This document shows, piece by piece, positions 27,720-64,000 of a DNA stretch of 64,000 bases. Source of the DNA: Terebella lapidaria (taxonomy: Eukaryota; Annelida; Polychaeta; Terebellida; Terebellidae); the NCBI GenBank assembly GCA_949152475.1, contig OX424563.1:21611001-21675000 (forward strand), read 5' to 3'. Below the pieces are notes generated by a model. It did not search any database. It saw nothing but the letters and a program-made list of their open reading frames with translations, and was not told the origin of the DNA. How positions within the stretch are numbered: the first letter of the stretch is position 1; each line of letters starts with the position of its first letter. The translations under genes and the position numbers were made by a program.

Positions 27720-29165
27720 CGTGCTGCCAGTGGCAGTGGCAGTAGGTTACGGGAAAACGCTGCCGCCTAGAATCTTGCAGGATAGCTCAGATCTTGCTGG
27801 CAGTGGCAGTGGCAGTAGGTCACGGGAAAACACTGCCGCCTAGAATCATGGCTGAGATATCAGATCTTGCTGGCAGTGGCAGTGGCAGTAGGTCACGGGA
27901 AAAGGCTGCCACCTAGAATCTTGGAGGATAGTTCAGATCTTGCTGGCAGTGGCAGTGGCAGTAGGTCACGGGAAAACGCTGCCGCCTAAAATCATGGCTG
28001 ATATTCCAGATCTTGCTGGCAGTGGCAGTGGCAGTAGGTTACGGGAAAACGCTGCCGCCTAGAATCTTGGAGAATAGCTCAGATCTTGCTGGCAGAGGCA
28101 GTAGGTTACGGGAAAACGCTGCCGCCTAGAATCTTGGAGGATAGCTCAGATCTTGCTGGCAGTGGCAGTGGCAGTAGGTTACGGGATATCAATCCCGCCT
28201 AGAATTATGGCTGATATTTCAGATCTCGCTGGCAGTGGCAGTGGCAGTAGGTTACCCGAAAACGCTGCCACCTAGAATCTTGGAGGATGGTCAAGTGTTT
28301 TGCTGGCAGTGGCAGTGGCAGTAGATTACGGGAAAACGCTGCCGCCTAGAATCTTGGATGATAGTTCAGATCTTGCTGGCAGTGGCAGTGGCAGTAGATT
28401 AGGGGAAATCACTGCCACCTAGAATCTTGGCTGATATTCCAGATCTTGCTGGCAGTGGCAGTGGCAGTAGGTTACGGGAAAACGCTGCCGCCTAGAATCT
28501 TGCAGGATAGCTCAGATCTTGCTGGCAGTGGCAGTGGCAGTAGGTCACGGGAAAACACTGCCGCCTAGAATCATGGCTGAGATTTCAGATCTTGCTGGCA
28601 GTGGCAGTGGCAGTAGGTCACGGGAAAACGCTGCCACCTAGAATCTTGGAGGATAGCTCAGATCTTGCTGGCAGTGGCAGTGGCAGTAGGTCACGGGAAA
28701 ACGCTGCCGCCTAGAATCATGGCTGATATTCCAGATCTTGCTGGCAGTGGCAGTGGCAGTAGGTTACGGGAAAACGCTGCCGCCTAGAATCTTGGAGAAT
28801 AGCTCAGATCTTGCTGGCAGAGGCAGTAGGTTACGGGAAAACGCTGCCGCCTAGAATCTTGGAGGATAGCTCAGATCTTGCTGGCAGTGGCAGTGGCAGT
28901 AGGTTACGGGATATCAATCCCGCCTAGAATTATGGCTGATATTTCAGATCTCGCTGGCAGTGGCAGTGGCAGTAGGTTACCCGAAAACGCTGCCACCTAG
29001 AATCTTGGAGGATGGTCAAGTGTTTTGCTGGCAGTGGCAGTGGCAGTAGATTACGGGAAAACGCTGCCGCCTAGAATCTTGGATGATAGTTCAGATCTTG
29101 CTGGCAGTGGCAGTGGCAGTAGATTAGGGGAAATCACTGCCACCTAGAATCTTGGCTGATATTTC
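27720..29165. repeat. Higher-order duplication in the satellite, offset 725 bp
   Basis: Two nearly identical blocks of about ten units lie in tandem. Markers with the same 725-base offset are aatcttgcagg (27771 and 28496), atatcaatcccgcctagaat (28186 and 28911), caagtgttttgctgg and cagtagattagggg. Only scattered single-base differences separate the two blocks. Confidence 0.9.
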
Positions 29166-30859
29166 AGATCTTGCTGGCAGTGGCAAAGGGCTACGGGAAA
29201 TCACTGCCGCCTAGAATCTTGGATGATAGTCCAGTCTTGCTGGCAGTGGCAGTGGCAGCAGGTTACCCGAAAACGCTGCCACCTAGAATCTTGGAGGATG
29301 GTCAAGTGTTTTGCTGGCAGTGGCAGTGGCAGTAGGTTACGGGAAAACGCTGCCGCCTAGAATCTTGGATGATAGTTCAGATCTTGCTGGCAGTGGCAGT
29401 AGGTTACGGGAAAACGCTGCCGCCTAGAATCTTGGAGGATAGCTCAGATCTTGCTGGCAGTGGCAGTGGCAGTAGGTTACGGGAAATCGCTGCCGCCTAG
29501 AATCATGGCTGATATTTCAGATCTTGCTGGCAGTGGCAGTGGCAGTGGCAGTAGGTTACGGGAAATCACTGCCGCCTAGAATCATGGCTGATATTTCAGA
29601 TCTTGCTGGCAGTGGCAGTGGCAGTAGGTTACGGGAAAACGCTGCCGCCTAGAATCTTGGCTGATATTCCAGATCTTGCTGGCAGTGGCAGTAGGTTACT
29701 GGAAATCACTGCCGCCTAGAATCATGGCTGATATTCCAGATCTTGCTGGCAGTGGCAGTGGCAGTAGGTTACGGGAAATCACTGCCGCCTAGAATCATGG
29801 CTGATATTCCAGATCTTGCTGGCAGTGGCAGTGGCAGTAGGTTACGGGAAAGCGCTGCCGCCTAGAATCTTGGAGGATAGTTCAGATCTTGCTGGCAGTG
29901 GCAGTAGGTTACGGGAAAACGCTGCTGCCTAGAATCTTGGGAGGATAGCTCAGGTCTTGCTGGCAGTGGCAGTAGGTTGCGGGAAAACGCTGCCGCCTAG
30001 AATCTTGGAGGATAGTTCAGATCTTGCTGGCAGTGGCAGTAGGTTACGGGAAAACGCTGCTGCCTAGAATCTTGGGAGGATAGTTCAGATCTTGCTGGCA
30101 GTGGCAGTGGCAGTAGGTTACGGGAAAACGCTGCCGCCTAGAATCATGGCTGATATTTCAGATCTTGCTGGCAGTGGCAGTGGCAGTAGGTTACCCGAAA
30201 ACGCTGCCACCTAGAATCTTGGAGGATGGTCAAGTGTTGCTGGCAGTGGCAGTGGCAGTGGGTTACGGAAAAACGCTGCCGCCTAGAATCTTGGATGATA
30301 GTTCAGATCTTGCTGGCAGTGGCAGTATCAGTAGGTTACGGGAAAACGCTGCCGCCTAGAATCTTGGATGATAGTTCAGATCTTGCTGGCAGTGGCAGTG
30401 GCAGTAGGTTACCCGAAAACGCTCCCACCTAGAATCTTGGAGGATGGTCAAGTGTTGCTGGCAGTGGCAGTGGCAGTAGGTTACGGGAAAACGCTGCCGC
30501 CTAGAATCTTGGCTGATAGTTCAGATCTTGCTGGCAGTGGCAGTGGCAGTAGGTTACGGGAAAACGCTGCCGCCTAGAATCTTGGATGATAGTTCAGATC
30601 TTGCTGGCAGTGGCAGTGGCAGTAGGTTAGGGGAAATCACTGCCACCTAGAATCTTGGCTGATATTTCAGATCTTGCTGGCAGTGGCAGTGGCAGTGGGC
30701 TACGGGAAATCACTGCCGCCTAGAATCTTGGATGATAGTTCAGTCTTGCTGGCAGTGGCAGTGGCAGTAGGTTACGGGAAAACGCTGCCGCCTAGAATCT
30801 TGGATGATAGTTCAGATCTTGCTGGCAGTGGCAGTGGCAGTAGGTTAGGGGAAATCACT

Positions 30860-31870
30860 GCCACCTAGAATCTTGGCTGATATTTCAGATCTTGCTGGCA
30901 GTGGCAGTGTGCTACGGGAAATCACTGCCGCCTAGAATCTTGGATGATAGTTCAGTCTTGCTGGCAGTGGCAGTGGCAGTAGGTTACGGGAAATCACTGC
31001 CGCCTAGAATCTTGGATGATAGTCCAGTCTTGCTGGCAGTGGCAGTGGCAGTGGCAGTAGGTTACCCGAAAACGCTGCCACCTAGAATCTTGGAGGATGG
31101 TCAAGTGTTGCTGGCAGTGGCAGTGGCAGTAGGTTTCGGGAAAACGCTGCCGCCTAGAATCTTGGATGATAGTTCAGATCTTGCTGGCAGTGGCAGTGGC
31201 AGTAGGTTACGAGAAAACGCTGCCGCCTAGAATCTTGGATGATACTTCAGATCTTGCTGGCAGTGGCAGTGGCAGTAAGTTACGGGAAAACGCTGCCGCC
31301 TAGAATCTTGGAGGATAGCTCAGATCTTGCTGGCAGTGGCAGTGGCAGTAGGTTACGGGAAATCACTGCCACCTAGAATCTTGGCTGATATTTCAGATCT
31401 TGCTGGCAGTGGCAGTGTGCTACGGGAAATCACTGCCGCCTAGAATCTTGGATGATAGTTCAGTCTTGCTGGCAGTGGCAGTGGCAGTAGGTTACGGGAA
31501 ATCACTGCCGCCTAGAATCTTGGATGATAGTCCAGTCTTGCTGGCAGTGGCAGTGGCAGTAGGTTACTCGAAAACGCTGCCACCTAGAATCTTGGAGGAT
31601 GGTCAAGTGTTGCTGGCAGTGGCAGTGGCAGTAGGTTTCGGGAAAACGCTGCCGCCTAGAATCTTGGAGGATAGTTCAGATCTTGCTGGCAGTGGCAGTG
31701 GCAGTAGGTTACGAGAAAACGCTGCCGCCTAGAATCTTGGATGATACTTCTGATCTTGCTGGCAGTGGCAGTGGCAGTAAGTTACGGGAAAACGCTGCCG
31801 CCTAGAATCTTGGAGGATAGCTCAGATCTTGCTGGCAGTGGCAGTGGCAGTAGGTTACGGGAAATCACTG
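30860..31870. repeat. Higher-order duplication in the satellite, offset 502-508 bp
   Basis: About seven units are repeated in tandem. Markers are gtgtgctacggg (30907 and 31415), aggtttcggg (31131 and 31633), gatacttc and gtaagttacggg. The offset drops from 508 to 502 across the block because one ggcagt hexamer is missing in the second copy. Confidence 0.85.
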
Positions 31871-32600
31871 CCGCCTAGAATCATGGCAGATATTTCAGAT
31901 CTTGCTGGCAGTGGCAGTGGCAGTAGGTTACGGGAAAATGCTGCCGCCTAGAATCTTGGCTGATATTCCAGATCTTGCTGGCAGTGGCAGTGGCAGTAGG
32001 TTACGGGAAAACGCTGCCGCCTAGAATCTTGGAGGATAGCTCAGAACTTGCTGGCAGTGGCAGTGGCAGTAGGTTACGGGAAATCACTGCCGCCTAGAAT
32101 CATGGCTGATATTTCAGATCTTGCTGGCAGTGGCAGTGGCAGTAGGTTACGGGAAACCGCTGCCGCCGAGAATCTTGGAGGATAGCTCAGATCTTGCTGG
32201 CAGTGGCAGTGGCAGTAGGTTACGGGAAATCACTGCCGCCTAGATTCATGGCTGATATTCCAGATCTTGCTGGCAGTGGCAGTGGCAGTAGGTTACGGGA
32301 AAACGCTGCCGCCTAGAATCTTGGGGGATAGCTCAGATCTTGCTGGCAGTGGCAGTGGCAGTAGGTTAGGGGAAAACGCTGCCACCTAGAATCTTGGAGG
32401 ATAGCTCAGATCTTGCTGGCAGTGGCAGTGGCAGTAGGTTACGGGAAATCACTGCCGCCTAGAATCATGGCTGATATTTCAGATATTGCTGGCAGTGGCA
32501 GTAGGTTACGGGAAAACGCTGCCGCCTAGAATCTTGGAGGATAGCTCAGATCTTGCTGGCAGTGGCAGTGGCAGTAGGTTACAGGAAAACGCTGCCGCCT

Positions 32601-47065: not shown

Positions 47066-47221
47066 CGAAATGTCTGGATTGCTGAAGTCCTGTTCGGTGC
47101 ACGAGCGAACGATCCCTGCCCGCCATCCCCACTCCGAAATTCTGCTCAATTTCAGTCGTCCCTGGCTTTTCACGGACAAAAACCGCTTCCCAACTATCTC
47201 ACGGCGGTATTTGTAATCCAT
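47066..47221 (-). CDS. KDM3: KDM3/JMJD1-family histone demethylase, exon 1 with start codon
   Basis: Seen: 52 codons from ATG at 47221, starting MDYKYRREIVGKRFLSV, with WGWRAGIVRS further on and ending SNPDIS, then donor gtgagt. Known: JMJD1C starts MAVETRAELVGKRFL and has WRAGVIRAVSHRDSRNPDLA; the distance from the chosen ATG to VGKRFL is the same, which is why this start was preferred over in-frame ATGs further upstream. The exon ends in phase 0 and joins exon 2 as NPDIS-VLVEFDD. The REEP start codon lies 719 bases away in the opposite direction. The tandem duplication breakpoint at 47121 falls inside this exon, but this copy is complete. Confidence 0.9.
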
Positions 47222-47940
47222 TGTACACATCAGGTATCCATAATGTTCATAATTTGTGATTTTATCGCCCAAAATGCAGTTGGAATCCAACTCCCTGAAA
47301 CTCTCTCGACCATCTGTACTGGCGTATGAATACAACATGAACTCACTGGGTCACGGGGTCAAAAAGTTATACACGTCCGCATCCGCGTAGCAAGAATATA
47401 GTCCGTGTGATTTTGTTTGTTTTCATGCATTTTCTTCCCGTCAACATGCTATTCAAGCACATATTTTCAAGAATATCAACATATAAACTGTTTCAAGGAT
47501 GAAAGAACCATGTGAAGAACCTATTCAGAGTTTGTTTTGATTTGACACGTGTGACAAATGGACGAGCTGTCAAATTATTAATTTCATTGATGTGAACTTC
47601 TCGGAGTGAAAAAGGCTATAAGTTGGATGCATATTCACAAAATAAGATGACGAGTGGTGCTCTATCACTTCGATCTAACCATCTAGCGAAGAATTGGTAA
47701 AATATTTGATCGCACATCAGCACTGTCATTGTTGTTTCTGAAATCAGCTGTTTACGATTTGACCTCTGTGACCTTTGGCATAGTTTCACGACCCTGGTCA
47801 TGTGACTTTGTATTGAGTGACGTAAAAATTCAGCATGGCCGCCCTGTAACGGAATCTGTGTGTTTTGCTCCGAGTTTGTGAACGATTGTTGTGGACTTGT
47901 TGATGCTTATTCAGGATATTTGTGAACCAGACCCTGCACG
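47222..47940. promoter_or_regulatory. Shared head-to-head promoter region of KDM3 and REEP
   Basis: 719 bases lie between the two start codons, which point away from each other, so both promoters and 5' leaders must lie here unless untranslated exons exist. Visible motifs include a direct repeat TGACCT-ctg-TGACCT at 47760-47774 (nuclear-receptor DR3 spacing on the other strand), TCATGTGA just after it, and TGACGTAA (CRE-like) at 47818-47825. No TATA box can be assigned. Motif calls are by eye; the transcription start sites are unknown. Confidence 0.6.
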
Positions 47941-47972
47941 ATGGTGTCCTTGATCATTTCACGCGTAATTAT
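47941..47972 (+). CDS. REEP: REEP1-4-family ER membrane protein, first coding exon (copy 1)
   Basis: Seen: ATG GTG TCC TTG ATC ATT TCA CGC GTA ATT AT followed by donor gtgagt, giving MVSLIISRVI. Known: REEP1 and REEP2 begin MVSWIISRLVV and REEP3 MVSWMISRAVV. REEP1-4 proteins shape ER tubules through an N-terminal hairpin membrane domain and bind microtubules. The peptide is only ten residues, so the call rests equally on its place head to head with KDM3, the same neighbour pair as JMJD1C-REEP3 in human. Exon 2 (family motif LYPAYYSYKAV) was not found in the window. From this copy, splicing to exon 2 would have to cross duplicate copy 2 and the retrotransposon. Confidence 0.7.
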
Positions 47973-48550
47973 GTGAGTATCAACCCAACAAACTTCTCAA
48001 AGCTGCCAATACACAAAAGTGTAATTTGAAAATCCAAATGTCAATCGCTTCAAGATTGATTGAAAAATCTGACATTCAGTGTTTATTGTTTATGAAAAGT
48101 TGTATTGAAAATTTGGAACCAACTGTCATTAATTTTCTGGGCCTAACTAGCTAGATCTATGAGAAATAAAGGAGCAGTTCCTGAATCTCGTGGGCAGCTT
48201 CATTCCCAGGTGAGACACTACAAATCACCGAATCAAAATTAGGCCTAAATAATGTTGTTTATTTTGAAGTTGAACAATGAACAATAACAGGACACACTCA
48301 ATGACTCATAACAAAATACTGGTTCAGGAGTAGTTTATTACAAAGTTGAAGGTTTATAATGACCGTCTTCTTGTTCAAACTAAACTTTGCGGTTGTTAAA
48401 GGTATTGGGTATATTATTTTTTGTTACTACTTAGTACTTAGAGCCATCTGATCCGTCCTAAATTTGTCACATTCCAAAATTCGCCAACAGCGTTTTCAGG
48501 CCTTGTAATGCAACTGAAACTAATTAGTTCTATCATTCGAGACTGTCCAG

Positions 48551-49308
48551 TAGGCATGTAAATCGGTGGGAGATTTTGAAATCGATGATCGTTGCCTTCC
48601 ACCGAGCGATCATCGATCTTCGAATCTGACCCTTGACTCGGCAATACTCATGCTTGTTGATGGGCAATATCGGCTGGAACCGCCGCGGTCACTGAGGCGC
48701 TAGTGCCATGATACGATGCTGGGGTTAGCATGTATTATAGGGCACAGGAAGAAATAAATGAATAAACCATAAGGTTTTAATAATAGTCCAAAAAAGTTGT
48801 TTGGTAATTGATGATCCGAGTCAAAAATAGCAATGTTTGAAGAAGTTTCATTCGAATCATCAAATGTGGAGCCATTGCACATACGCGGCAAAAATAGTCC
48901 TCAACAATCCCCAAGATTAGATCATAATTTAAGCAATATACTTCGCCTAATCCTTTTGAAAAATCTGCATAAATTCGGTTACGTAATCTAATCTTATAGT
49001 TTACAATGTAACTAATTTAGTATTTGTGAGGAAAACAATTTGCATTACGGTCGGCACCCACCGGCCACCGGTCTGACATAGGCTGCATAGACGTGCTGTA
49101 GGAGTTCTCTCGATGTATTCATACGCGGCTACAAAACAAGAACTAGCTTTTTTTAAAAAGGCGCACGGCCAAAACTGCCCACTCACGAAAATATCCGAAA
49201 CAATTTACGATATGAAAAAAATTGATTCCAAGTATTTCACATCGATCATCGCTCGGCCCAGTACAATCGATCGATCATCGATATCATCGATTTATCGTTA
49301 CATGCCTA
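48551..49308. mobile_element. hAT-like non-autonomous DNA transposon, copy 1
   Basis: 758 bp with terminal inverted repeats taggcatgtaa and ttacatgccta. Subterminal repeats include atcgatgatcg words near both ends. The right flank is gtgtccag; in duplicate copy 2 both flanks are gtgtccag, an 8-bp target duplication typical of hAT elements, while here the left flank has lost two bases. The short open frames inside show no clear transposase motif. Confidence 0.78.
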
Positions 49309-50047
49309 GTGTCCAGGGGATTCATCACTTCGAGTTGACAGTTCGAGATGACAGTTCCAGTTGAGTTGAAAAAGTTAAAATGCCCAATTTTTCCATTACA
49401 GGTTTATTTTGATATATTTATCATGCTATTCGTGGTTTCGTGTTTTACATCAACCGCAGACAGTAAACCAAAACAGAAACAAAACCGGGAACTATTTTAG
49501 TCCGTGGAATGCGACAGTCTCCGTGAGATCACTTTCGGTTTATTTGGAAGATTTGGCGCCGGAAAGTAAGGTTTTCTTCGGAGGCGATTTGGAAGAACAA
49601 CGAACAAGGAGGTTGCGAGAAACTGTTATTATTGTTCAACATGTTCAAGTAGTCTAGAATTATAAGTTGGACTAGTGATGGAGTGATTCATAAGGACCAG
49701 AGTTACACACAGACTTGCATACAGATTGGCGTAGGAATATGGGATGGGGCAACTCTAACTCGAACTGTCATCTCGATCTGTCAACTCGAACTGACTCATT
49801 CCCTACACTCTTCGAGACTGATATCCAACCTTCGTACCAGCAGTTTTTTTCTCCACAAAATGGGCTTCTGAGCTCTGATAATATTGAGTTGATATTGAAT
49901 TTAGGACAAGTGACTCGTAATTTATAAGCGTGTTTTGTCTTTAATTATGACATGTACATATAAAGCTGAAGAGTGGCTCCGAAAAATATGTGGGTTTTCA
50001 GTACAAGGGGAGATTGTTTGTGTGCCTCACACTCCCGTTTGGCTGGA

Positions 50048-50359
50048 TGGGCTCACTCTAGCTGATCGCACTGTAGCATTTTGCTAATCAAAGGCTCAAA
50101 ATGCTAAACAAAAATAGCTTGCTTTCGCACAATTTGAGAAAGTGTAATTGGCATTGTCTTCATAATAATTAATATCGGACTCTTGCATTTCTATCAATCA
50201 TCATGGTCATTGAAGTACTTTCGTCAGTTATTGAATAGTCCTTCGTACAATGCGGTATGCATGCAAGAATTATTGCTAAAAGAAATTATAAAATGCTAAA
50301 AGAAATTTGAAGTTTTTAGCAATTTTTGATTAGCAAAATTTGTCACTAGAGTGAACCCA
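50048..50359. mobile_element. 312-bp MITE, copy 1
   Basis: The ends tgggctcactctag and ctagagtgaaccca are inverted repeats with one mismatch, extended internally by attttgctaatcaaa and its inverse. It is flanked by direct repeats ggctgg (50041-50046 and 50360-50365). It contains several gctaaaa-type words and no coding capacity. Family not determined. Confidence 0.7.
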
Positions 50360-50611
50360 GGCTGGGAAGCGTCAGCATATGTCTACCACTCTGTGAATCT
50401 GGCCTGCGCACCTACGGCGTGAAGTTGGTCATGTACTCGTGATTGTAGATCTATTGCAACAAGATTGTCCATCTGCAGAAAATTCTTCTAATTACTAATA
50501 TGAGCTCAGTTTTGTTCGAAATCCTAGGAACAAGCACAAGTTGCCTAACATAACAAGGTGAATTATGTCAACATTTTATATGTTGCTTCTGTTCTTTTGT
50601 TCTTCCTTCAG

Positions 50612-50687
50612 AATTAATGCTGCTCTCAACAGAAAACTCATTTCATTTGCAGATCAACACCTTGCAGTTGGATCACATGTAGGATAA
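50612..50687 (+). other. Exon-like segment in REEP intron 1, uncertain
   Basis: A strong acceptor (gttcttttgttcttccttcag) is followed by an open phase reading INAALNRKLISFADQHLAVG and ending in TAA. The same segment is in duplicate copy 2 at 62166-62241. It could be an alternative last exon or chance; no family was recognised. Confidence 0.2.
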
Positions 50688-50992
50688 CTGGGCGATTTTT
50701 TCATCTGATACCATAACACATTTGTACCCATAATAAGGCACACCATGTTAATGAAGTCAACAAAAGTTGACCGTTTAATTCTACATGACAATTGTAAGCA
50801 GAAATACATAATAGCATGAAGAGAGATATCTCATGTATTTCTGATGTAAGCCATGTACCAGTAGTCATTTTCAATACATTGTCTTGTATAGTTTATTTTT
50901 GCTGCAGCGTACAGTGGTACAGGTGTGAACTCATATCTGTTTATTGTTATGTGACTAGGACTGAATTTATGTCATCATTGTTGTGACCAGAA

Positions 50993-51093
50993 CGCCATCC
51001 CCACTCCGAAATTCTGCTCAATTTCAGTCGTCCCTGGCTTTTCACGGACAAAAACCGCTTCCCAACTATCTCACGGCGGTATTTGTTATCCAT
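50993..51093 (-). pseudogene. KDM3: Truncated duplicate of KDM3 exon 1
   Basis: This is the first 101 bases of KDM3 exon 1 (from ATG at 51093 through EWGW), ending at the duplication junction. The last 18 codons and the splice donor are missing, so it cannot be spliced to exon 2 as the real exon is. One coding difference is visible: MDNKYRR instead of MDYKYRR. The frame runs on past the junction into unrelated sequence. Confidence 0.9.
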
Positions 51094-51498
51094 TGTACAC
51101 ATCAGGTATCCATAATGTTCATAATTTGTGATTTTATCGCCCAAAATGCAGTTGGAATCCAACTCCCTGAAACTCTCTCGACCATCTGTACTGGCGTATG
51201 AATACAACATGAACTCACTGGGTCACGGGGTCAAAAAGTTATACACGTCCGCATCCGCGTAGCAAGAATATAGTCCGTGTGATTTTGTTTGTTTTCATGC
51301 ATTTTCTTCCCGTCAACATGCTATTCAAGCACATATTTTCAAGAATATAAACTGTTTCAAGGATGAAAGAACCATGTGAAGAACCTATTCAGAGTTTGTT
51401 TTGATTTGACACGTGTGACAAATGGACGAGCTGTCAAATTATTAATTTCATTGATGTGAACTTCTCGGAGTGAAAAAGGCTATAAGTTAGATGCATAT
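51094..51498. promoter_or_regulatory. Duplicate of the KDM3-proximal half of the shared promoter region
   Basis: Matches 47222-47634 except for an 8-base deletion and a base change. It ends in the target site ATAT (51495-51498) of the LTR element. In this copy it is separated from the REEP-proximal half by 7.7 kb. Confidence 0.7.
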
Positions 51499-52208
51499 TA
51501 TCAGAGTGTTAAATTAATTAATTAATGAGATCAATTAATAACTCTGATAAGTGTATATTTATACCAATGTATATTTCTAATAATTTACCTAATTAATTGT
51601 AATAATTTATATAATTAATATTCTTAATTATAATTATGTTTAATGAAGATTACTTCAATATTAAGATCATTATTGTATCATATTAATTACTAGTCATTTA
51701 CAAAAGTCTTATTTTATCTTATACAATTCAAATCTAACAACTAGTTTACTATTCCACTTTTGTACAAGTCACAGCCTGAGAAGTATTCAAAATTTGAAAA
51801 AGACATTAATCTTATTCCAAACAACTGTTCTTTGGCTACAGTTTAAAACCACACAAGATTTTGGTTCTCACGCTCCTGTTTGAATGTGATTGGTCCATTC
51901 AGACTTGACTGGGAAACAGAGTCTTGTCATTGGTTAGTTTTGTAATATTACCTAACCTCAAGCTTCTAGCTGGGAGAAAATTTTAAAATTCAAATCAGTT
52001 GGGAGTTCAGTTCTGGGTCTGAAGACACCATCATCAGTCTGTGACTTACTTCATATTTTTGGACTATCTAAATTACATCATTACAACTGGATTACTCAAT
52101 AAACTGGATTATATTTCTCAACATCTGTCTTTGGATTCAATTCCCCCTGAAGAAAATCTATATACATCAATCAATTAAAAGTACAATATATCACACAAAA
52201 CAGTGATA
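51499..52208 (+). repeat. 5' LTR
   Basis: 710 bp, AT-rich at its start. It begins tatcagagt and ends gtgata, so the ends are TATCA...TGATA rather than the usual TG...CA. The first 50 bases fold back on themselves, with tatcagagt and actctgata as arms. A possible primer-binding site beginning TGG follows at 52211; the matching tRNA was not identified. Confidence 0.92.
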
Positions 52209-52290
52209 TTTGGTGGAGTACATCACGGGAGTGCCTACCAACATCAAGGACTAAAAAGAAAAAAAAGAAAGAAAGAGAGAAGCCAACAAC

Positions 52291-53274
52291 ATGCCAAAGA
52301 CGAGAAAAGCTAGAAATACAAACCAACAGAGCACAGAACATGCAGAACTGGACTCTGACCCAGACGTCCTATCGTCATCAGAAATTCCTGTGAAAAGGAC
52401 TGACAGTGCCTTACAAATCAACAACTGTAAGGCACTCGAGAAAAGTGTTTCATGTTTTGGGGGCCAGTCATCGGGGAATCCCCAATTCTGGCTGCAGACG
52501 TATGACAGATATTGCCAGTTGAAAGGATGGACGGACACAACCAAACTAATGTCTGTGTCCCTGTTTCTGCAGGACACAGCATTGTTCTGGTTCCTGAACA
52601 AGGATCCACCATTTGAGACATACAAACAGTTCTCTTCTGCATTCATCAACGAGTTCAAACTCACGAAAACACAGATGTTGGCTCGTTTAGACAAGTTAGC
52701 AACAAGAAAACAGTTACCAACAGAGAGTGTTGACGACTATCTCCTAGCCGTGTCAAGAGAATGTCGCGAGCTGGTCAGATCTCCAGAACAGGAGATGGAA
52801 ATAGCCATACAAGGACTGTTGCCCAAGACCAAGTGCCAGGTCCTGCTGAAGGAGCCAGAAAGCCTAGCTGATGTGCGACGCATCGCCCTCCTGGTGGAAA
52901 ATGTTACCAGCACAACTCCAGCGCCGGATCATGCTGTCATGGCATGTGACACTGGACGGAGTGGACGACAACCCCAACAGTCGTCTGAGCTGTCAGCACT
53001 ATGCAGCGAGATCTCGGAGCTGAGGAAGAAAGTTGACGCCATGGCCGAGAAGAAAGATGTGGAGTCGTCTCACCGCGGATACCCTCCTCCTCGCCCGCGA
53101 CGCAATTCCCCAGCCTGCTGGAAGTGTGGTGAAAAACATCGCTACCGCAACTGCCCCGCCTACGGCACTACATGCAGTAACTGTGGAAAAGCCAACCACT
53201 ACGCGAGGCTCTGCAAAACATCGCGCAGCACAGTTACCAGCACAGACAAGCCCCAAGCGAATGATCAGCACTAG
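52291..53274 (+). CDS. gag: gag of the LTR retrotransposon
   Basis: 327 codons starting MPKTRKARN. Residues about 45-210 resemble the Ty3/gypsy capsid domain, with the pattern NPQFWLQTYDRYC, then FLNKDPPFETYKQFSSAF and a long helical stretch. A Pro/Arg-rich segment precedes two zinc knuckles (CWKCGEKHRYRNC and CSNCGKANHYARLC, about residues 278-310) that would bind RNA. It encodes the structural protein of the virus-like particle. gag and pol share a phase; some families with this layout express pol by read-through. Confidence 0.93.
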   Translation: MPKTRKARNTNQQSTEHAELDSDPDVLSSSEIPVKRTDSALQINNCKALEKSVSCFGGQSSGNPQFWLQTYDRYCQLKGWTDTTKLMSVSLFLQDTALFWFLNKDPPFETYKQFSSAFINEFKLTKTQMLARLDKLATRKQLPTESVDDYLLAVSRECRELVRSPEQEMEIAIQGLLPKTKCQVLLKEPESLADVRRIALLVENVTSTTPAPDHAVMACDTGRSGRQPQQSSELSALCSEISELRKKVDAMAEKKDVESSHRGYPPPRPRRNSPACWKCGEKHRYRNCPAYGTTCSNCGKANHYARLCKTSRSTVTSTDKPQANDQH

Positions 53275-53280
53275 GGACTC

Positions 53281-56200
53281 GTGCCTGTCTCACATGCGCG
53301 GGACAGGCATAGTGCAGAAGCCACTCCTAACAGCGATGATATAGGTATTGTACCAAAAGTCTATATCACTAAATCAAACAGGCCCAATATGTTAAATTGT
53401 TGTATAAATGGGAAAGGTGTAAATGCACTACTAGATACTGGTGCAAATGTCAGTTGCATTTCTAATCACATGTATAGGTATACAAATAGTAACAAGTGCT
53501 TCCCACTACAGTGTTCACCTGTAGGACACATCATAGGTGTAGGTGGACATAAAATCAATGTGTTAGGTACTGTTACCTTACCTGTTGTCATAAATGACCT
53601 GAAATTGTGGCAAGACTTTCTCGTCCTGCCAGGATCTGCTGACCCACAGATCATTCTAGGAGAGACATTTTTACGCTCTCAGCAAGCTAACTGGGATTTT
53701 GGCACTAATACTTTGACTTTACAACAAGGTATGGTAACAATTAACCTAACAGATTCCAGAGATCACGTGAAGAACAGAGTGTGTTTCATAAGAACTACTG
53801 AGGATGTGATTGTTCCTGGTAATAGTGAAATACTTTTGAATGTTAAGGTGTCAAAGTCTAAATCTGATTCTAAAGGGTGTATACCTAAAGCTGGTGTAAT
53901 ACAACCCACTGCACAGCTGAACAAAAAGTTCTTCGTCACAGGACCGAGTTGTGCTGTACAACCTGACACTGGTCGATGTGTATATAGATTGTTAAACCCT
54001 TTACCGACTGACACACACATTCCCAGTAATCACATTTTAGGGACATATTCACCAATAACCGATGACACACAGCTTGTTCACATGGAGGACATGCCTCCAG
54101 AACTCCATCCAAGCTCAAGTGAGAAGCACACTACAGACATTACCATTGACAGTACAACACCTGTATCTGCTCATGTCAATACACTGTTGTCGTACACAGA
54201 GCTCAATGAGAACACAAACAGAAACATCAACACCATACACATGACAGGTGGAAGTGATCCTCATCAGGTAGAGCACACCAAAGGCTGCCACACTCCAGAT
54301 CACAATTCTGACCCCATTCGTGATCGCCAGTATTTCATTCAGGTGGCTAAGGCCATGAATGTAGACATTCCATTGGATGCCATCTCAGAAAGTCAGAGAG
54401 ATGATATACTGGAGTTGATTGGCAGGAATCGTGATGTCTTTGCTGTGAGTACATCTGAACTGGGGACATATGACAGCTATCATCACGTCATCGACACAGG
54501 AGACCATCCACCTGTGAAGTCAAGATTCTACAGAACCTCCCCTGCTCACAAAACTGAGATTGAGAGGCAGGTGAATGACTTGCTTAGCTGTGGTATAATA
54601 CAACGCTCGACAAGCAACTGGATGTCACCTGTGATACTGGTGAAGAAAGCCAATGGCACATGGAGAATGGTAGTCGACTATAGGGCCCTAAACAAGCTTG
54701 TGAAGCCAGTCTATTTCCCTCTTCCAAGGAACGAGGATGTAGTGGACGCTCTTGGACAATCCAAGGCGACTATATTTTCCACTCTGGACTTGGCCCAAGC
54801 ATTTCTACAGGTTCCTCTGGACCCACTTACTAAACACAAGACTGCCTTCATAACACACCATGGAGTGTTTGAATTTAACAAACTGCCATATGGTTTGTCA
54901 AATTCTCCAGCAGTTTTCAGCGCTGTCATGACACAGGTGCTTAGTAAGTTTTTGTATGTCTATGCCATTGTCTATGCCGATGACATTTTGCTATATTCTG
55001 AGAATTTCGCGCATCATCTGCAACACCTTTCGAATGTATTTCAAAAGCTCAGAGAGGCTAACTTAAAGTTACGCCCTACAAAGTGTCATTTTGCCAAGGC
55101 AGAAGTCACCTTCCTGGGACATGTCATCTCCAAGCATGGATTGTCTGTAGACCCCAAGAAGACGTCAGCTATCACAACATTTCCTGTGCCTGAGACTCAG
55201 ACACAGCTGAGAACGTTTCTTGGAATTTGCCAATACTACAGGAGATTTGTAAAGGACTTCTCACATATAACAGCACCACTGAATAAACTGCTCCAGAAGG
55301 AAGCGAAGTTCCATTGGGATAACGTGTGCCAGACAGCATTTCAACAGATGAAAGGAGTCCTGACAAGCCCACCAATCTTGGCATTTCCTAATTTCGACAA
55401 AGAGTTTATTCTCTACACAGATGCCAGCACGTCAGCTATTGGTTATATTCTCGGTCAAAAGGATGACAAGAATCGAGATGTTGTGATAGCTTATGGTGGA
55501 AGATCACTGAGGTCTTCTGAACGGAACTGGGGTATATCTGAGCTGGAAGGACTCGCTATTGTCGAGGGGATCCGTCAGTATCATGTATATCTTGCTGATA
55601 TACCCTTCACAATTGTCACTGACCATTCTGCACTACAATATATTCAGGACTGCAAACTAACAACTGGACGCCTGAGCAGATGGTCACTGTTCCTTCAACA
55701 GTACAGGTACACCATACAGTATCGTAAGGGTTCGAAGAACGGGAATGCTGACACTCTAAGCAGAAGAGAGTACCCACCCACCACGTCTCCTCCATGTACA
55801 TGGGTATCCAATGCTACAGAGTCAACAGATCTGTCTCCACTGGTGTCTCAAATCTGTCTGCCTGTCACAGATGCAAGACAAGAAACCGAGAACAGGTACA
55901 CACAGTTGAAGTCCATCAGACACCTGTGTGCTGTAGCAGACACAGACAAGCCGGATGTCAGAACGAAACAACAGTCTGATCCACAACTGGCTGACATATT
56001 CAACTATCTCCAAGACGGTATTATGCCAGAGAATATGACAGAAAAAGCAGAACGTCGCTTCATTGCTCAAAGTCATGAGTATGTAGTGGATCCGGATGAC
56101 GGCTTACTGTATCACCTGTATTATCCACGTGGCAAGGGACTCCGAGCAAACCGTATCGTCCGACAACTGGTTGTACCTTCATCACTGAAGAACGATGTCA

Positions 56201-57510
56201 TGTTATCTTACCACGACAGTCTCATGGCCGGTCACCAGGGTTTTGACAGAACCTATCATCTCATCCGGTTGAAATATTACTGGGACCGAATGTACATGGA
56301 AATCAAACAGTATGTTAAATCTTGCAAGGACTGCCAATTAAACAAAGCCGACAGCCACAAGCGAAATGTGCCACTTCATCCACTGCAGACTGATGGTATA
56401 TTTGGAAGGATCCATATTGATCTTTTTGGGCCTCTCCCCAAAGCTCAGTCTTATCGTTATATCTTGCTTGTTGTGGATGCATTTTCCAAATGGCCAGAAG
56501 CCTTTCCTGTTAAGTCACTATCTGGAGCAGAAATTGCAAGAATACTCTACAACGAAGTTATCTGTCGCTGGGGTGCACCTCATTCATTACTCAGTGACCG
56601 CGGCACAAACTTCTTGTCGTCGATCGTAACTGAAGTCTGCAGAATATTTGAGATCAGAAAACTGAAAACATCAAGTTGGCATCCTGAAACAAACGCCACA
56701 GCAGAGCGTCGGATGTCAGGATTGGCACAGTGTCTCCGCATGTATGTCAATAATCACCAGGACAACTGGCCAGAACTATTACCATCAATAATGGCAGCAT
56801 GGAGAGCCACTCCATCCGTCAATTCCACACTGTTCAGTCCTTACAAAATTCTGCTAGGCCAAGAGATGAGACTACCGCTTGATGTGGACCTCATCCCCAA
56901 CAACAACATTCCACACTCAAGTCTGGATCATCTACAGGAGATCACTCAACAATTTAAGATCACCAGAGAATTGGCAAAACAAAACATCCAGCAAGCGCAG
57001 GATCAAAATAAAAAGTATCATGACAGGAAAGCCAAATCGCCCACATTTTGCTTGGGAGATCTCGTTGTTCTTAACAACACTACCAAGCAGAAAGGACTCA
57101 ATCCCAAGCTACAGCCCAAGAAAATTGGTCCGTTCTATATAACAGATGTGAATGAGGACAACAGTACATACCTGATAAGGGACTGTGCTACTCACAAGCA
57201 AAGAAGATCCCGAGTCCATGCCAAACGACTGACCAGGTTCGTGAGTACCGACATTCGTGACATTACGCCACCTGTTGAAAATGAACTGGCTGAGGACAGT
57301 GCCGATGACACTGAGGACGAAGCTGCAGCTCCAAGCCAGGATGTGGATCCACAACCACCTCCATCCCCACACACATCCACTCAGTCACAGAATCCAACAC
57401 AGCCAGATAACACACCTCAGCCTTCTCAAACTGACACCCAGTCACAAGACACTACACAACCAAACACACAAGCACAACCAAAACAGTCCATTGAGAAAAT
57501 ACTACAATAA
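53281..57510 (+). CDS. pol: pol of the LTR retrotransposon (protease, RT, RNase H, integrase)
   Basis: About 1400 codons. Aspartic protease LLDTGANVS near residue 51; reverse transcriptase with FSTLDLAQAFLQVPL and the catalytic YADD at about 565; RNase H with LYTDAS at about 711. Integrase follows, with an HHCC zinc finger (GHQGF to CKDC, about 985-1015), a D,D35E core (Asp near 1047 and 1106, Glu near 1142) and a GPF/Y-type segment KIGPFYI. The C-terminal part is Pro/Gln/Thr-rich and acidic. The domain order is that of Ty3/gypsy elements. The first residues correspond to the gag/pol junction, so the true start of the mature protein is not defined. Confidence 0.95.
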   Translation: MPVSHARDRHSAEATPNSDDIGIVPKVYITKSNRPNMLNCCINGKGVNALLDTGANVSCISNHMYRYTNSNKCFPLQCSPVGHIIGVGGHKINVLGTVTLPVVINDLKLWQDFLVLPGSADPQIILGETFLRSQQANWDFGTNTLTLQQGMVTINLTDSRDHVKNRVCFIRTTEDVIVPGNSEILLNVKVSKSKSDSKGCIPKAGVIQPTAQLNKKFFVTGPSCAVQPDTGRCVYRLLNPLPTDTHIPSNHILGTYSPITDDTQLVHMEDMPPELHPSSSEKHTTDITIDSTTPVSAHVNTLLSYTELNENTNRNINTIHMTGGSDPHQVEHTKGCHTPDHNSDPIRDRQYFIQVAKAMNVDIPLDAISESQRDDILELIGRNRDVFAVSTSELGTYDSYHHVIDTGDHPPVKSRFYRTSPAHKTEIERQVNDLLSCGIIQRSTSNWMSPVILVKKANGTWRMVVDYRALNKLVKPVYFPLPRNEDVVDALGQSKATIFSTLDLAQAFLQVPLDPLTKHKTAFITHHGVFEFNKLPYGLSNSPAVFSAVMTQVLSKFLYVYAIVYADDILLYSENFAHHLQHLSNVFQKLREANLKLRPTKCHFAKAEVTFLGHVISKHGLSVDPKKTSAITTFPVPETQTQLRTFLGICQYYRRFVKDFSHITAPLNKLLQKEAKFHWDNVCQTAFQQMKGVLTSPPILAFPNFDKEFILYTDASTSAIGYILGQKDDKNRDVVIAYGGRSLRSSERNWGISELEGLAIVEGIRQYHVYLADIPFTIVTDHSALQYIQDCKLTTGRLSRWSLFLQQYRYTIQYRKGSKNGNADTLSRREYPPTTSPPCTWVSNATESTDLSPLVSQICLPVTDARQETENRYTQLKSIRHLCAVADTDKPDVRTKQQSDPQLADIFNYLQDGIMPENMTEKAERRFIAQSHEYVVDPDDGLLYHLYYPRGKGLRANRIVRQLVVPSSLKNDVMLSYHDSLMAGHQGFDRTYHLIRLKYYWDRMYMEIKQYVKSCKDCQLNKADSHKRNVPLHPLQTDGIFGRIHIDLFGPLPKAQSYRYILLVVDAFSKWPEAFPVKSLSGAEIARILYNEVICRWGAPHSLLSDRGTNFLSSIVTEVCRIFEIRKLKTSSWHPETNATAERRMSGLAQCLRMYVNNHQDNWPELLPSIMAAWRATPSVNSTLFSPYKILLGQEMRLPLDVDLIPNNNIPHSSLDHLQEITQQFKITRELAKQNIQQAQDQNKKYHDRKAKSPTFCLGDLVVLNNTTKQKGLNPKLQPKKIGPFYITDVNEDNSTYLIRDCATHKQRRSRVHAKRLTRFVSTDIRDITPPVENELAEDSADDTEDEAAAPSQDVDPQPPPSPHTSTQSQNPTQPDNTPQPSQTDTQSQDTTQPNTQAQPKQSIEKILQ

Positions 57511-58477
57511 CGGAGGTACAAGTCACAAATGTGGTACAGAGTGAAATACACTGGCATGAAGAACTCGCAGTGGGTACTAAAGGATCAAATAGATGATCAA
57601 CATGTAAGAGATTTTCACGTAAAGAAAACTCAGAAAGGCAGGGCCCGTAAAAAGGCTCAAGTACCCATGTAAATAAGTCTTATATATTATTCATTTGTAT
57701 ACCAGCCATGATAATCATGAACATAATGTGTCATAATGTCACTCATTATATGCATATAATATGCAAAATACAATTCAAAATGTATAATACACGTACATGT
57801 TTGTTGAATAATTAAGGGTTTGAAATGTGTCTTCAATTACAGTTTGACATTCCTAGTTAGTAGAACATGTCATTGTGACTTTATATGCGTTATCCTGAAC
57901 TGATGGTTGTATTTTTCAGTTAAACATAGGGCAAATAGGTACCATATTCCTATGTATGATAATGAGTTTGTACTGAATACATGCAAAATTTATTTTATTT
58001 TCAGTAAGAAAATGGGCATTGTATTTCAAAATTATTTAACTTTAGGTATTTTTTTTTTCTTGTGTTCTTGCATCTCTGATTCTGCACTGAATGACTTCTA
58101 TGCTGTTCTTGATACTTCAAAAGCTAGAGAACTGTCAAACTTTGTTTTGTAATTTGACACCTAAGAATTTCAGACTTTGCACTCTGAGAAGATCACTTGG
58201 ATCAGTTGCATACACTGAATCCTACATTGTATTGTATTTCACATGTTTTACATTGATGTGTATGTCCACACATGTGTGTGCCAATTATTATACATATTAA
58301 TGTCACCTATATGATCTGACTCTATCGTTACTATATGCCAATAGGCAATTCAAGTTTACATTTATATTACTATTATGTATTGTATTGTGTTTATGAAAGA
58401 TCTTTCATCATATTTATTTACCAGTGTTGTATATTGTATGAAAATCAGGAGATTTTCGATTTAAACTGAGAGGCATA
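57511..58477 (+). other. 3' internal region of the LTR retrotransposon
   Basis: AT-rich sequence between pol and the 3' LTR. No envelope-like gene or other separate gene was recognised. Confidence 0.6.
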
Positions 58478-59196
58478 TATCAGAGTGTTAAATTAATTAA
58501 TTAATGAGATCAATTAATAACTCTGATAAGTGTATATTTATACCAATGTATATTTCTAATAATTTACCTAATTAATTGTAATAATTTATATAATTAATAT
58601 TCTTAATTATAATTATGTTTAATGAAGATTACTTCAATATTAAGATCATTATTGTATCATATTAATTACTAGTCATTTACAAAAGTCTTATTTTATCTTA
58701 TACAATTCAAATCTAACAACTAGTTTACTATTCCACTTTTGTACAAGTCACAGCCTGAGAAGTATTCAAAATTTGAAAAAGACATTAATCTTATTCCAAA
58801 CAACTGTTCTTTGGCTACAGTTTAAAACCACACAAGATTTTGGTTCTCACGCTCCTGTTTGAATGTGATTGGTCCATTCAGACTTGACTGGGAAACAGAG
58901 TCTTGTCATTGGTTAGTTTTGTAATATTACCTAACCTCAAGCTTCTAGCTGGGAGAAAATTTTAAAATTCAAATCAGTTGGGAGTTCAGTTCTGGGTCTG
59001 AAGACACCATCATCAGTCTGTGACTTACTTCATATTTTTGGACTATCTAAATTACATCATTACAACTGGATTACTCAATAAACTGGATTATATTTCTCAA
59101 CATCTGTCTTTGGACTATCATCATTCAATTCCCCCTGAAGAAAATCTATATACATCAATCAATTAAAAGTACAATATATCACACAAAACTGTGATA
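58478..59196 (+). repeat. 3' LTR
   Basis: 719 bp, identical by eye to the 5' LTR except for 9 extra bases (ctatcatca) near 59116 and one base close to the end. It is preceded by a weak purine-rich stretch at about 58463-58475 that may be the polypurine tract. The target duplication ATAT follows at 59197-59200. Confidence 0.93.
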
Positions 59197-59200
59197 ATAT

Positions 59201-59506
59201 TCACAAAATAAGATGACGAGTGGTGCTCTATCACTTCGATCTAACCATCTAGCGAAGAATTGGTAAAATATTTGATCGCACATCAGCACTGTCATTGTTG
59301 TTTCTGAAATCAGCTGTTTACGATTTGACCTCTGTGACCTTTGGCATAGTTTCACGACCCTGGTCATGTGACTTTGTATTGAGTGACGTAAAAATTCAGC
59401 ATGGCCGCCCTGTAACGGAATCTGTGTGTTTTGCTCCGAGTTTGTGAACGATTGTTGTGGACTTGTTGATGCTTATTCAGGATATTTGTGAACCAGACCC
59501 TGCACG
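59201..59506. promoter_or_regulatory. Duplicate of the REEP-proximal half of the shared promoter
   Basis: Corresponds to 47635-47940 in copy 1. Retains the TGACCT-ctg-TGACCT direct repeat (59326-59340) and TGACGTAA (59384-59391). The 3' LTR lies immediately upstream in the same orientation as REEP, so LTR-driven transcription could read toward this exon. Confidence 0.6.
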
Positions 59507-59538
59507 ATGGTGTCCTTGATCATTTCACGCGTAATTAT
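59507..59538 (+). CDS. REEP: REEP1-4-family ER membrane protein, first coding exon (copy 2)
   Basis: The same 32 bases and gtgagt donor as at 47941-47972, encoding MVSLIISRVI plus two bases of the next codon. This copy is continuous with the sequence to the right, so it is the one closest to the remaining REEP exons. Both first exons look usable, which would give two alternative promoters for the same protein. Exon 2 was not seen before the window ends. Confidence 0.72.
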
Positions 59539-60111
59539 GTGAGTATCAACCCAACAAACTTCTCAAAGCTGCCAATACACAAAAGTGTAATTTGAAAATC
59601 CAAATGTCAATCGCTTCAAGATTGATTGAAAAATCTGACATTCAGTGTTTATTGTTTATGAAAAGTTGTATTGAAAATTTGGAACCAACTGTCATTAATT
59701 TTCTGGGCCTAACTAGCTAGATCTATGAGAAATAAAGGAGCAGTTCCTGAATCTCGTGGGCAGCTTCATTCCCAGGTGAGACACTACAAATCACCGAATC
59801 AAAATTAGGCCTAAATAATGTTGTTTATTTTGAAGTTGAACAATGAACAATAACAGGACACACTCAATGACTCATAACAAAATACTGGTTCAGGAGTAGT
59901 TTATTACAAAGTTGAAGGTTTATAATGACCGTCTTCTTGTTCAAACTAAACTTTGCGGTTGTTAAAGGTATTGGGTATATTATTTTTTGTTAGTACTTAG
60001 AGCCATCTGATCCGTCCTAAATTTGTCACATTCCAAAATTCGCCAACAGCGTTTTCAGGCCTTGTAATGCAACTGAAACTAATTAGTTCTATCATTCGAG
60101 ACTGTGTCCAG

Positions 60112-60862
60112 TAGGCATGTAAATCGGTGGGAGATTTTGAAATCGATGATCGTTGCCTTCCACCGAGCGATCATCGATCTTCGAATCTGACCCTTGACTC
60201 GGCAATACTCATGCTTGTTGATGGGCAATATCGGCTGGAACCGCCGCGGTCACTGAGGCGCTAGTGCCATGATACGATGCTGGGGTTAGCATGTATTATA
60301 GGGCACAGGAAGAAATAAATGAATAAACCATAAGGTTTTAATAATAGTCCAAAAAAGTTGTTTGGTAATTGATGATCCGAGTCAAAAATAGCAATGTTTG
60401 AAGAAGTTTCATTCGAATCATCAAATGTGGAGCCATTGCACATACGCGGCAAAAATAGTCCTCAACAATCCCCAAGATTAGATCATAATTTAAGCAATAT
60501 ACTTCGCCTAATCCTTTTGAAAAATCTGCATAAATTCGGTTACGTAATCTAATCTTATAGTTTACAATGTAACTAATTTAGTATTTGTGAGGAAAACAAT
60601 TTGCATTACGGTCGGCACCCACCGGTCTGACATAGGCTGCATAGACGTGCTGTAGGAGTTCTCTCGATGTATTCATACGCGGCTACAAAACAAGAACTAG
60701 CTTTTTTTAAAAAGGCGCACGGCCAAAACTGCCCACTCACGAAAATATCCGAAACAATTTACGATATGAAAAAAATTGATTCCAAGTATTTCACATCGAT
60801 CATCGCTCGGCCCAGTACAATCGATCGATCATCGATATCATCGATTTATCGTTACATGCCTA
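60112..60862. mobile_element. hAT-like non-autonomous DNA transposon, copy 2
   Basis: 751 bp, the duplicate of 48551-49308, shorter by a 7-base deletion. Both flanks carry gtgtccag (60104-60111 and 60863-60870), the intact 8-bp target duplication that identifies the element class. Confidence 0.82.
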
Positions 60863-61601
60863 GTGTCCAGGGGATTCATCACTTCGAGTTGACAGTTCGA
60901 GATGACAGTTCCAGTTGAGTTGAAAAAGTTAAAATGCCCAATTTTTCCATTACAGGTTTATTTTGATATATTTATCATGCTATTCGTGGTTTCGTGTTTT
61001 ACATCAACCGCAGACAGTAAACCAAAACAGAAACAAAACCGGGAACTATTTTAGTCCGTGGAATGCGACAGTCTACGTGAGATCACTTTCGGTTTATTTG
61101 GAAGATTTGGCGCCGGAAAGTAAGGTTTTCTTCGGAGGCGATTTGGAAGAACAACGAACAAGGAGGTTGCGAGAAACTGTTATTATTGTTCAACATGTTC
61201 AAGTAGTCTAGAATTATAAGTTGGACTAGTGATGGAGTGATTCATAAGGACCAGAGTTACACACAGACTTGCATACAGATTGGCGTAGGAATATGGGATG
61301 GGGCAACTCTAACTCGAACTGTCATCTCGATCTGTCAACTCGAACTGACTCATTCCCTACACTCTTCGAGACTGATATCCAACCTTCGTACCAGCAGTTT
61401 TTTTCTCCACAAAATGGGCTTCTGAGCTCTGATAATATTGAGTTGATATTGAATTTAGGACAAGTGACTCGTAATTTATAAGCGTGTTTTGTCTTTAATT
61501 ATGACATGTACATATAAAGCTGAAGAGTGGCTCCGAAAAATATGTGGGTTTTCAGTACAAGGGGAGATTGTTTGTGTGCCTCACACTCCCGTTTGGCTGG
61601 A

Positions 61602-61913
61602 TGGGCTCACTCTAGCTGATCGCACTGTAGCATTTTGCTAATCAAAGGCTCAAAATGCTAAACAAAAATAGCTTGCTTTCGCACAATTTGAGAAAGTGTA
61701 ATTGGCATTGTCTTCATAATAATTAATATCGGACTCTTGCATTTCTATCAATCATCATGGTCATTGAAGTACTTTCGTCAGTTATTGAATAGTCCTTCGT
61801 ACAATGCGGTATGCATGCAAGAATTATTGCTAAAAGAAATTATAAAATGCTAAAAGAAATTTGAAGTTTTTAGCAATTTTTGATTAGCAAAATTTGTCAC
61901 TAGAGTGAACCCA
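61602..61913. mobile_element. 312-bp MITE, copy 2
   Basis: Duplicate of 50048-50359 with the same ends and flanking ggctgg repeats. Its presence in both copies shows that it predates the segmental duplication. Confidence 0.7.
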
Positions 61914-64000
61914 GGCTGGGAAGCGTCAGCATATGTCTACCACTCTGTGAATCTGGCCTGCGCACCTACGGCGTGAAGTTGGTCATGTACTCGTGATTGT
62001 AGATCTATTGCAACAAGATTGTCCATCTGCAGAAAATTCTTCTAATTACTAATATGAGCTCAGTTTTGTTCGAAATCCTAGGAACAAGCACAAGTTGCCT
62101 AACATAACAAGGTGAATTATGTCAACATTTTATATGTTGCTTCTGTTCTTTTGTTCTTCCTTCAGAATTAATGCTGCTCTCAACAGAAAACTCATTTCAT
62201 TTGCAGATCAACACCTTGCAGTTGGATCACATGTAGGATAACTGGGCGATTTTTTCATCTGATACCATAACACATTTGTACCCATAATAAGGCACACCAT
62301 GTTAATGAAGTCAACAAAAGTTGACCGTTTAATTCTACATGACAATTGTAAGCAGAAATACATAATAGCATGAAGAGAGATATCTCATGTATTTCTGATG
62401 TAAGCCATGTACCGGTAGTCATTTTCAATACATTGTCTTGTATAGTTTATTTTTGCTGCAGCGTACAGTGGTACAGGTGTGAACTCATATCTGTTTATTG
62501 TTATGTGACTAGGACTGAATTTATGTCATCATTGTTGTGACCAGAACTTATGTGAAATCTTCTGCATCATGTCATTTTGATTGTACACACGATTGATAGT
62601 GCTGCTTTAATCTTGTTCATTGTCAGAATTTCCACAGCTCAGCAACTTCCTTAAATGAATCAATGATCTCCAGACCAGATGTTGAAATGTGGTCTTTTGC
62701 TGAGAGGCTTCAGCTTTCCCCTTTTTGTTCGAATTTGAGCAATCCACAGCTGGCTTCATTGAATAGTGATATAACAAAACACACATGTATTACAATGATT
62801 TAGGCGATTTGAGAAATTGAATGTTGTCTTTCTTTCATTTTTACATCTTTGTGATGAAAGTCGTTCAATATGAACACACCTTTTGATTGAATAATTATAT
62901 ATTGACCATGTTGGACGCAGCTGTTCTTTGAATTTTGTTGTGATTGGAAAATCGTTCGCTCTATCATTCTATGTCAGTTGGATCAATCTGATAATTCCAA
63001 CACATAAATATTTCTGTTTTCCCACCGTGAACTGTCAACGCATGATAGGTCACCTTGAACAAATCTGGAGATGAAATTATACCCGTATTCATGTCATTTC
63101 ATGCATATAGTGCTGCATTAACTGTGAATTGGCTGCAGTCTAAATTCATGTTTTGAAAACTTTTGACAAATTATACATGATATGCTCAGTTCTGATCAAA
63201 TATGAAATTAAGTATCAAAAAACTTTGGGTTGTGAAAAGTTCTACACTTGTTCACATAGTTAGTTATTAATGACCGTACAGGTAGTTTGCCACCTGTTCA
63301 TCGCCATCCATTATTCTCACTATTTATATTGTTTGCTATTATCTGCGTTAATCTGGAGGCAGTTGGTGCGCACTTAAATTTTAACGAGTAGCTTATCTGC
63401 ACCAGAGCTGATAGCATCTATTTCTACCTACCGTATACATGTACATTGTTACAGTACTTCGAAATTAATGTACCATACCATTATGTCAAATGAGACACAC
63501 ACAATATGGCAATGCATTTATTAACGTCCTGGTATCGGTGTTTAGACTATAAATATACATAACTTGTTATTTTCTTCACGACTTGATACAGGTAATTATT
63601 TCGAATAAACTCCTCCTATCATTTTGTGAAAAATTCCTTATTCCGAAAAAACACATTTTTTGTCATGAATGTTTTTTTATTCAGACCATGCACACTGTAC
63701 ATGCAATGTAGGACATGGACCTGACTATTTCAGTTGCGTTTGCAGCAACACATTGACAAATGTTAGATGGTGGTAAGTAAGTGTACAGTACCATACATGT
63801 TCAAAGGACCGTGTGAAGATGAGCTCGTTATACACAATTTAGACATGTTACATGTATTACTACAGTGATCATTCATCAACCCATAGGCAGTTTTGTCCCT
63901 TTGTTGTAACTACTGCCAAGTTACCTCAGAACCCACAGTTGGTGTGATTTATAGGCTGCAGGAGTCCTTGGCTTTTGTGCTATTAGTACCAAGTTTCGTC

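Follow-up and report, generated by a model that had tools for sequence, protein, structure and literature searches.

In the polychaete Terebella lapidaria, a KDM3 gene and a putative REEP gene lie head to head, and the stretch that joins them occurs twice. This raises the question of how the second copy arose, whether it is present in the animal or was created by the assembly, and what it would mean for the two genes. We analyzed the locus in one window of contig OX424563.1, i.e., a stretch of 64,000 nt, and all coordinates below are positions in this window. The sequence suggests that a recent non-homologous tandem duplication is the probable origin of the second copy, which is split by a long terminal repeat (LTR) retrotransposon that either inserted into the redundant copy or came with it from a second chromosome.

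When the window was compared with itself and base by base, positions 47121-47635 matched 50993-51499 at 98.1%, and positions 47631-50993 matched 59197-62547 at 99.5%. With E = 0.0 over 3.4 kb in the self-comparison, chance was no issue. The duplication unit (copy 1, plus strand, 47121-50992, 3,872 bp) is uninterrupted and holds the empty site of the retrotransposon. Copy 2, on the same strand, consists of a left piece on the KDM3 side (50993-51498) and a right piece on the REEP side (59197-62546), the first 4 bases of which are the second copy of the target-site duplication. The near-identical copies are in direct orientation and meet directly at 50992/50993. The left edge of the unit lies inside KDM3 exon 1 and its right edge in the sequence past the donor of the REEP exon, in agreement with an initial annotation that had proposed a 3872-bp unit reaching from KDM3 exon 1 to REEP intron 1. 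The tandem structure claimed there was recovered as far as the adjacency at 50992/50993 is concerned, whereas the splitting of copy 2 by a 7,698-bp retrotransposon had gone unmentioned. A plain, unbroken head-to-tail repeat was ruled out, since the self-comparison resolved copy 2 into two pieces around LTR-like repeats. Elsewhere in the window, no additional copies of the unit were found.

The base-by-base comparison of the copies revealed four substitutions (47215 A/T, 47625 G/A, 49521 C/A, and 50860 A/G) and four insertions or deletions (indels; 8 bp at 47473, 7 bp at 48427, 2 bp at 48547, and 7 bp at 49062), as the initial annotation had counted them, with about four bases and four indels. 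By eye, the indels at 48427, 49062, and 47473 resemble 7-8 bp steps in short tandem repeats. Indels are as numerous as substitutions, a ratio that seems high.

Judged by its sequence, the insertion in copy 2 is an ordinary Ty3/Gypsy-type LTR retrotransposon (51499-59196, plus strand, 7,698 bp) with open gag and pol frames. Its 5′ LTR (51499-52208, 710 bp, plus strand) and 3′ LTR (58478-59196, 719 bp, plus strand) are distinguished by a single substitution (at 52202) and a single 9-bp indel, and they contain AATAAA at 52098 and 59077, respectively. The element is flanked on the plus strand by the target-site duplication ATAT (51495-51498 and 59197-59200). At the corresponding empty site of copy 1 (47631-47634, plus strand), ATAT occurs once, with uninterrupted flanks. 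A target duplication ATATT, with the start of the element shifted one base later, fits equally well. The gag frame (52255-53274, plus strand) comprises 339 amino acids from stop to stop, ends with TAG, and matched Pfam family PF03732. The pol frame (53275-57510, plus strand) has 1,411 uninterrupted codons with matches to protease, reverse transcriptase (RT), RNase H, and integrase, which gives the Pfam domain order gag, then protease-RT-RNase H-integrase; the last of the four pol pieces (56701-57510) had no Pfam match. For the RT piece, 486 protein matches were obtained; among the 120 listed, the two best, both unnamed proteins, showed 53% identity, and a protein from Mytilus was present, as was a record with the name Transposon Ty3-I. 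The element resembles known Ty3/Gypsy LTR retrotransposons in its near-identical LTRs, its 4-bp target duplication, and its coding content (gag, protease, RT, RNase H, and integrase), the class being assigned above the level of clades. It differs in its gag and pol, which are read in the same frame with just one TAG (53272-53274) between them. This in-frame stop may point to readthrough of the kind known from some retroviruses rather than to frameshifting. No further copy of the retrotransposon was found in the window.

The coding part of KDM3 exon 1 in copy 1 (47066-47221, minus strand) is complete with 52 codons and is followed by a GTGAGT donor. Pfam family PF22989 (N-terminal DUF7030) was matched at 4.2e-17 by exon 1 and, with its end, at 4.8e-06 by exon 2, located near 36 kb, and was carried by all 69 of the 69 proteins returned for exon 1. 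The KDM3B PWWP model in exon 2 reached 2e-04, below the cut-off of the model. The predicted KDM3 identity of exon 1 was confirmed by the Pfam match and the 69 homologs. In an alignment with nine homologs the start methionine was invariant; it was the first residue in six of them, and the other three, which are predicted proteins, extend upstream of it.

As the initial annotation had stated, the second KDM3 exon 1 is truncated. Copy 2 retains the first 101 of the 156 coding bases (50993-51093, minus strand; 33 codons plus 2 nt), which are followed by REEP intron sequence and then a stop, and the donor is lost. Behind the truncated exon, no donor-like site scoring at least 7 of 9 was present in 49900-51093; this cut-off is the score of both real donors, those of KDM3 and REEP, and a cut-off of 8 of 9 would be uninformative. 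A substitution at 51087 changes codon 3 from Tyr to Asn. At this site, 58 homologs have Tyr, 3 Cys, 2 Phe, 2 Val, and none Asn among the 65 of 69 that are readable there, the N-terminus of the other four being shorter. Judged by these homologs, the change is on copy 2, and Asn there would suit a copy released from constraint. The KDM3 half of copy 2 would already be useless, so that the insertion would hit a redundant promoter.

The coding part of REEP exon 1 (plus strand) comprises 32 nt, which encode MVSLIISRVI and leave 2 nt, followed by a GTGAGT donor. It is located at 47941-47972 in copy 1 and at 59507-59538 in copy 2, so that the start codons at 47941 and 59507 are 11,566 bp apart. The two intact REEP first exons of the initial annotation were found again, identical including their donors within 792 bp shared by the copies without a difference (47635-48426 = 59201-59992). 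The N-terminus MVSLIISRVI is putatively that of REEP1-4, the 32-nt exon being too short for a family search. No second REEP exon was recognised by eye in the plus-strand frames of 62547-64000, and the window holds the 32-nt exon only. The putative assignment to REEP is based on this coding exon, its splice donor, and the known linkage of KDM3 and REEP genes. Human REEP1-4 are linked with KDM3A, KDM3B, JMJD1C, and HR, and a figure legend of the same study also names amphioxus relatives of both families (PMC3411107). As in these cases, KDM3 has a REEP-like exon as its neighbour, whereas here the genes are head to head with a start-codon spacing of 720 bp and the interval occurs twice; promoters are not discussed in the sections of that study that were covered. 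Positions given in part of a report on human REEP1, with c.60 in exon 2 and the exon 2 donor at c.105 (PMC2492855), are compatible with a short REEP exon 1, and are no proof of it. Among the papers listed, judged by title and start of the abstract, we found none on a shared KDM3-REEP promoter and no like case for conserved gene pairs or LTR insertions in promoters; a literature query on partial gene duplications with the full combination of terms gave no result.

The copies are joined at 50992/50993. Homology at this breakpoint is 1 bp, a single C common to the junction and either parent, and the junction contains no N; the sole N run of the window is a 200-bp gap at 24381-24580, far off. Partial tandem duplications with microhomology or a blunt junction arise by end joining or template switching. 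The locus resembles such partial tandem gene duplications in its direct near-identical copies, the breakpoints inside genes, and the 1 bp shared at the join, and differs in that the doubled piece is a head-to-head start-to-start interval, which comprises no more than first exons, intron, and regulatory DNA. A recent tandem duplication with this join would have copied the 720-bp KDM3-REEP interval and parts of both genes, leaving the complete KDM3 exon 1 beside the body of KDM3 and, in copy 2, a truncated version that lacks the donor. The Ty3/Gypsy-type element would then have inserted into the redundant promoter of copy 2, unless it came with a second chromosome that supplied this copy. The order of these events is our inference from the arrangement.

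An alternative is that the assembly laid an element-bearing and an element-free haplotype end to end, in which case each chromosome would have one promoter and the insertion would be heterozygous. The copies, with their low divergence and a large indel, fit a pair of alleles. According to the sections covered of a study on such false heterotype duplications, raised relative heterozygosity makes regions prone to them, and the copies are sometimes joined without a gap by wrong gap filling (PMC9516828). The false duplicates described there are near-identical neighbours with allele-like differences including a large insertion, as in our case, and their signs include haploid depth, gaps between the duplicates, discordant linked reads, and one-copy k-mers (PMC9516828). 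An assembly gap between the duplicates is absent at 50992/50993, and with 1 bp of homology at the breakpoint, joining the copies by overlap would require a read carrying the junction; the alternative is wrong gap filling. We therefore regard an artefact as unlikely and the duplication as probably real, its existence in the animal being deduced from the sequence. A true allele-specific tandem duplication with haploid depth is described in the same sections (PMC9516828), so that a true duplication may exist on one haplotype only and depth alone would not be decisive.

Both events appear to be young. The copies differ by 0.10% (95% interval 0.03-0.27%), i.e., by 4 substitutions in about 3,850 aligned bases (3,847 in the calculation), which bore out the recency proposed in the initial annotation. 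The divergence of the LTRs is 0.14% (0.004-0.79%) and does not differ from that of the copies (p = 0.57). As the two values are indistinguishable, duplication and insertion would both be recent, in an order that these values do not determine. We gave up placing the insertion in time relative to the duplication, as the two divergences derive from 4 and 1 substitutions. The presence of the element before a duplication on one chromatid was ruled out by the clean, footprint-free empty site in copy 1. The insertion could nevertheless be older than the duplication if the latter resulted from a non-homologous exchange between homologous chromosomes, the element-free one supplying copy 1 and the element-bearing one copy 2. 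This variant of a real duplication, whose probability is contained in that of the latter, is consistent with an LTR divergence not below the copy divergence. Pre-existing allelic differences are also compatible with the somewhat higher substitution density of the left arm (2 in 506 vs 2 in 3,354 in the right arm, p = 0.09); for all differences, the comparison is 3 in 506 vs 5 in 3,354 (p = 0.08, not significant). The counts are too small for an ordering, however, and insertion after duplication fits equally well, so that we consider the exchange rather doubtful.

Several points weigh against a real duplication followed by the changes proposed here. Forms with and without the element that are 0.1% apart are also allele-like, and chimeric reads or wrong gap filling can produce a gapless false join. 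The changes are not confined to copy 2. An inverted-repeat element in the REEP intron has an intact 8-bp target duplication (GTGTCCAG) in copy 2 (60112-60862, 751 bp, plus strand) and lacks 2 bp (GT) of it on the left in copy 1 (48551-49308, 758 bp, plus strand), which places this 2-bp loss on copy 1. Both copies have thus changed since their separation, as alleles would. The Tyr/Asn argument depends on a single substitution. Finally, AATAAA alone is weak evidence of termination and is also found in the REEP intron of copy 1.

If the duplication is real, its consequences depend on the interval between the start codons (47222-47940 in copy 1), a putative bidirectional promoter. Head-to-head pairs with bidirectional promoters are defined, in the part of the literature covered, by transcription starts within 1 kb (PMC7817982); the spacing of 720 bp would fall within this definition, with start codons here in place of transcription starts. 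The interval, which may act as a shared promoter, is whole in copy 1 and broken by the retrotransposon in copy 2, at a point whose counterpart in copy 1 is separated by 413 bp from the start of KDM3 and by 307 bp from that of REEP. The element has the orientation of REEP (sense) and separates the copy-1 REEP exon from the remainder of REEP. REEP transcripts starting in copy 1 would have to cross the whole element with the AATAAA of both LTRs, and the 307-bp promoter remnant of copy 2 may consequently serve REEP. The alternative REEP first exon in copy 1 may be poorly productive. KDM3 is likely served by copy 1, and REEP by the copy 2 remnant or by copy 1; the retrotransposon is likely the main functional change at the locus. 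Transcription of REEP from the 3′ LTR is a further candidate, unproven either way. A TATA-like sequence at 58535 precedes the AATAAA at 59077 within this LTR, so that a transcript started there would encounter a poly(A) signal ahead of the REEP exon.

A real duplication could also be neutral, with both REEP exons usable, the element spliced out within a long intron, and expression unchanged; this rivals the proposed consequence, not the structure. The REEP exons and donors are identical in the copies, and the copy 1 interval is whole. AATAAA also occurs in the REEP intron of copy 1 itself (48165, 48753, and 48761), twice more inside the element besides the LTRs, and 41 times in all on the plus strand of the window. 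Because of its presence in the copy 1 intron, the AATAAA of the LTRs need not stop transcription. The sense orientation of the element and the AATAAA in both LTRs speak against neutrality. So does the mouse, in which, according to the sections covered of one paper, germ-line mutations by IAP elements are mostly intronic and disturb splicing and polyadenylation, and many mutation-causing LTR elements of introns truncate transcripts (PMC6466679). This analogy is limited, since the mouse list was selected for harm and concerns other elements in another animal. We consider neutrality possible, with some leaning against it.

At the other extreme, an old head-to-head pair may be in the course of being uncoupled in a living population, with copy 1 driving KDM3 only and the truncated copy 2 promoter REEP only. 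The duplication would have doubled the shared promoter and the retrotransposon would then fix a division of labour: REEP transcripts from copy 1 would end in the LTRs, and each gene would gain its own control. The 41 occurrences of AATAAA weaken the termination argument and hence lower the probability of such an uncoupling, which we consider distinctly improbable.

Further repeats were noted in the REEP intron and to the left of KDM3 exon 2. The inverted-repeat element that lacks GT in copy 1, which we take to be of the hAT class, has the ends TAGGCATGTAA. It is nested near the left end of a second inverted-repeat element (about 48540-49820, with a copy at about 60095-61375), whose ends of about 60 bp are 84% alike and which is flanked by the 10-bp repeat TTCGAGACTG. 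The ratio of observed to expected CpG was 1.0-1.5 in 400-bp windows starting at 48400-49400 and 0.3-0.8 in those starting at 48000-48200 and 49600-50800. A satellite (24621-32600) of about 110 copies of 73 bp, which also fits a 146-bp repeat, adjoins the 200-N gap to the left of KDM3 exon 2. Rfam and tRNA scans of the window gave 0 matches.

Partial tandem duplication and a nested transposon are known kinds of event, and the interest of this locus lies in the identity of the doubled stretch and the site of the insertion. If the join were an artefact, annotation of the assembly would contain a spurious extra fragment of KDM3 and a spurious alternative exon of REEP. A real duplication would make the locus a very young natural experiment on splitting a shared promoter between two linked genes, with the two LTRs and the two copies as an internal clock.

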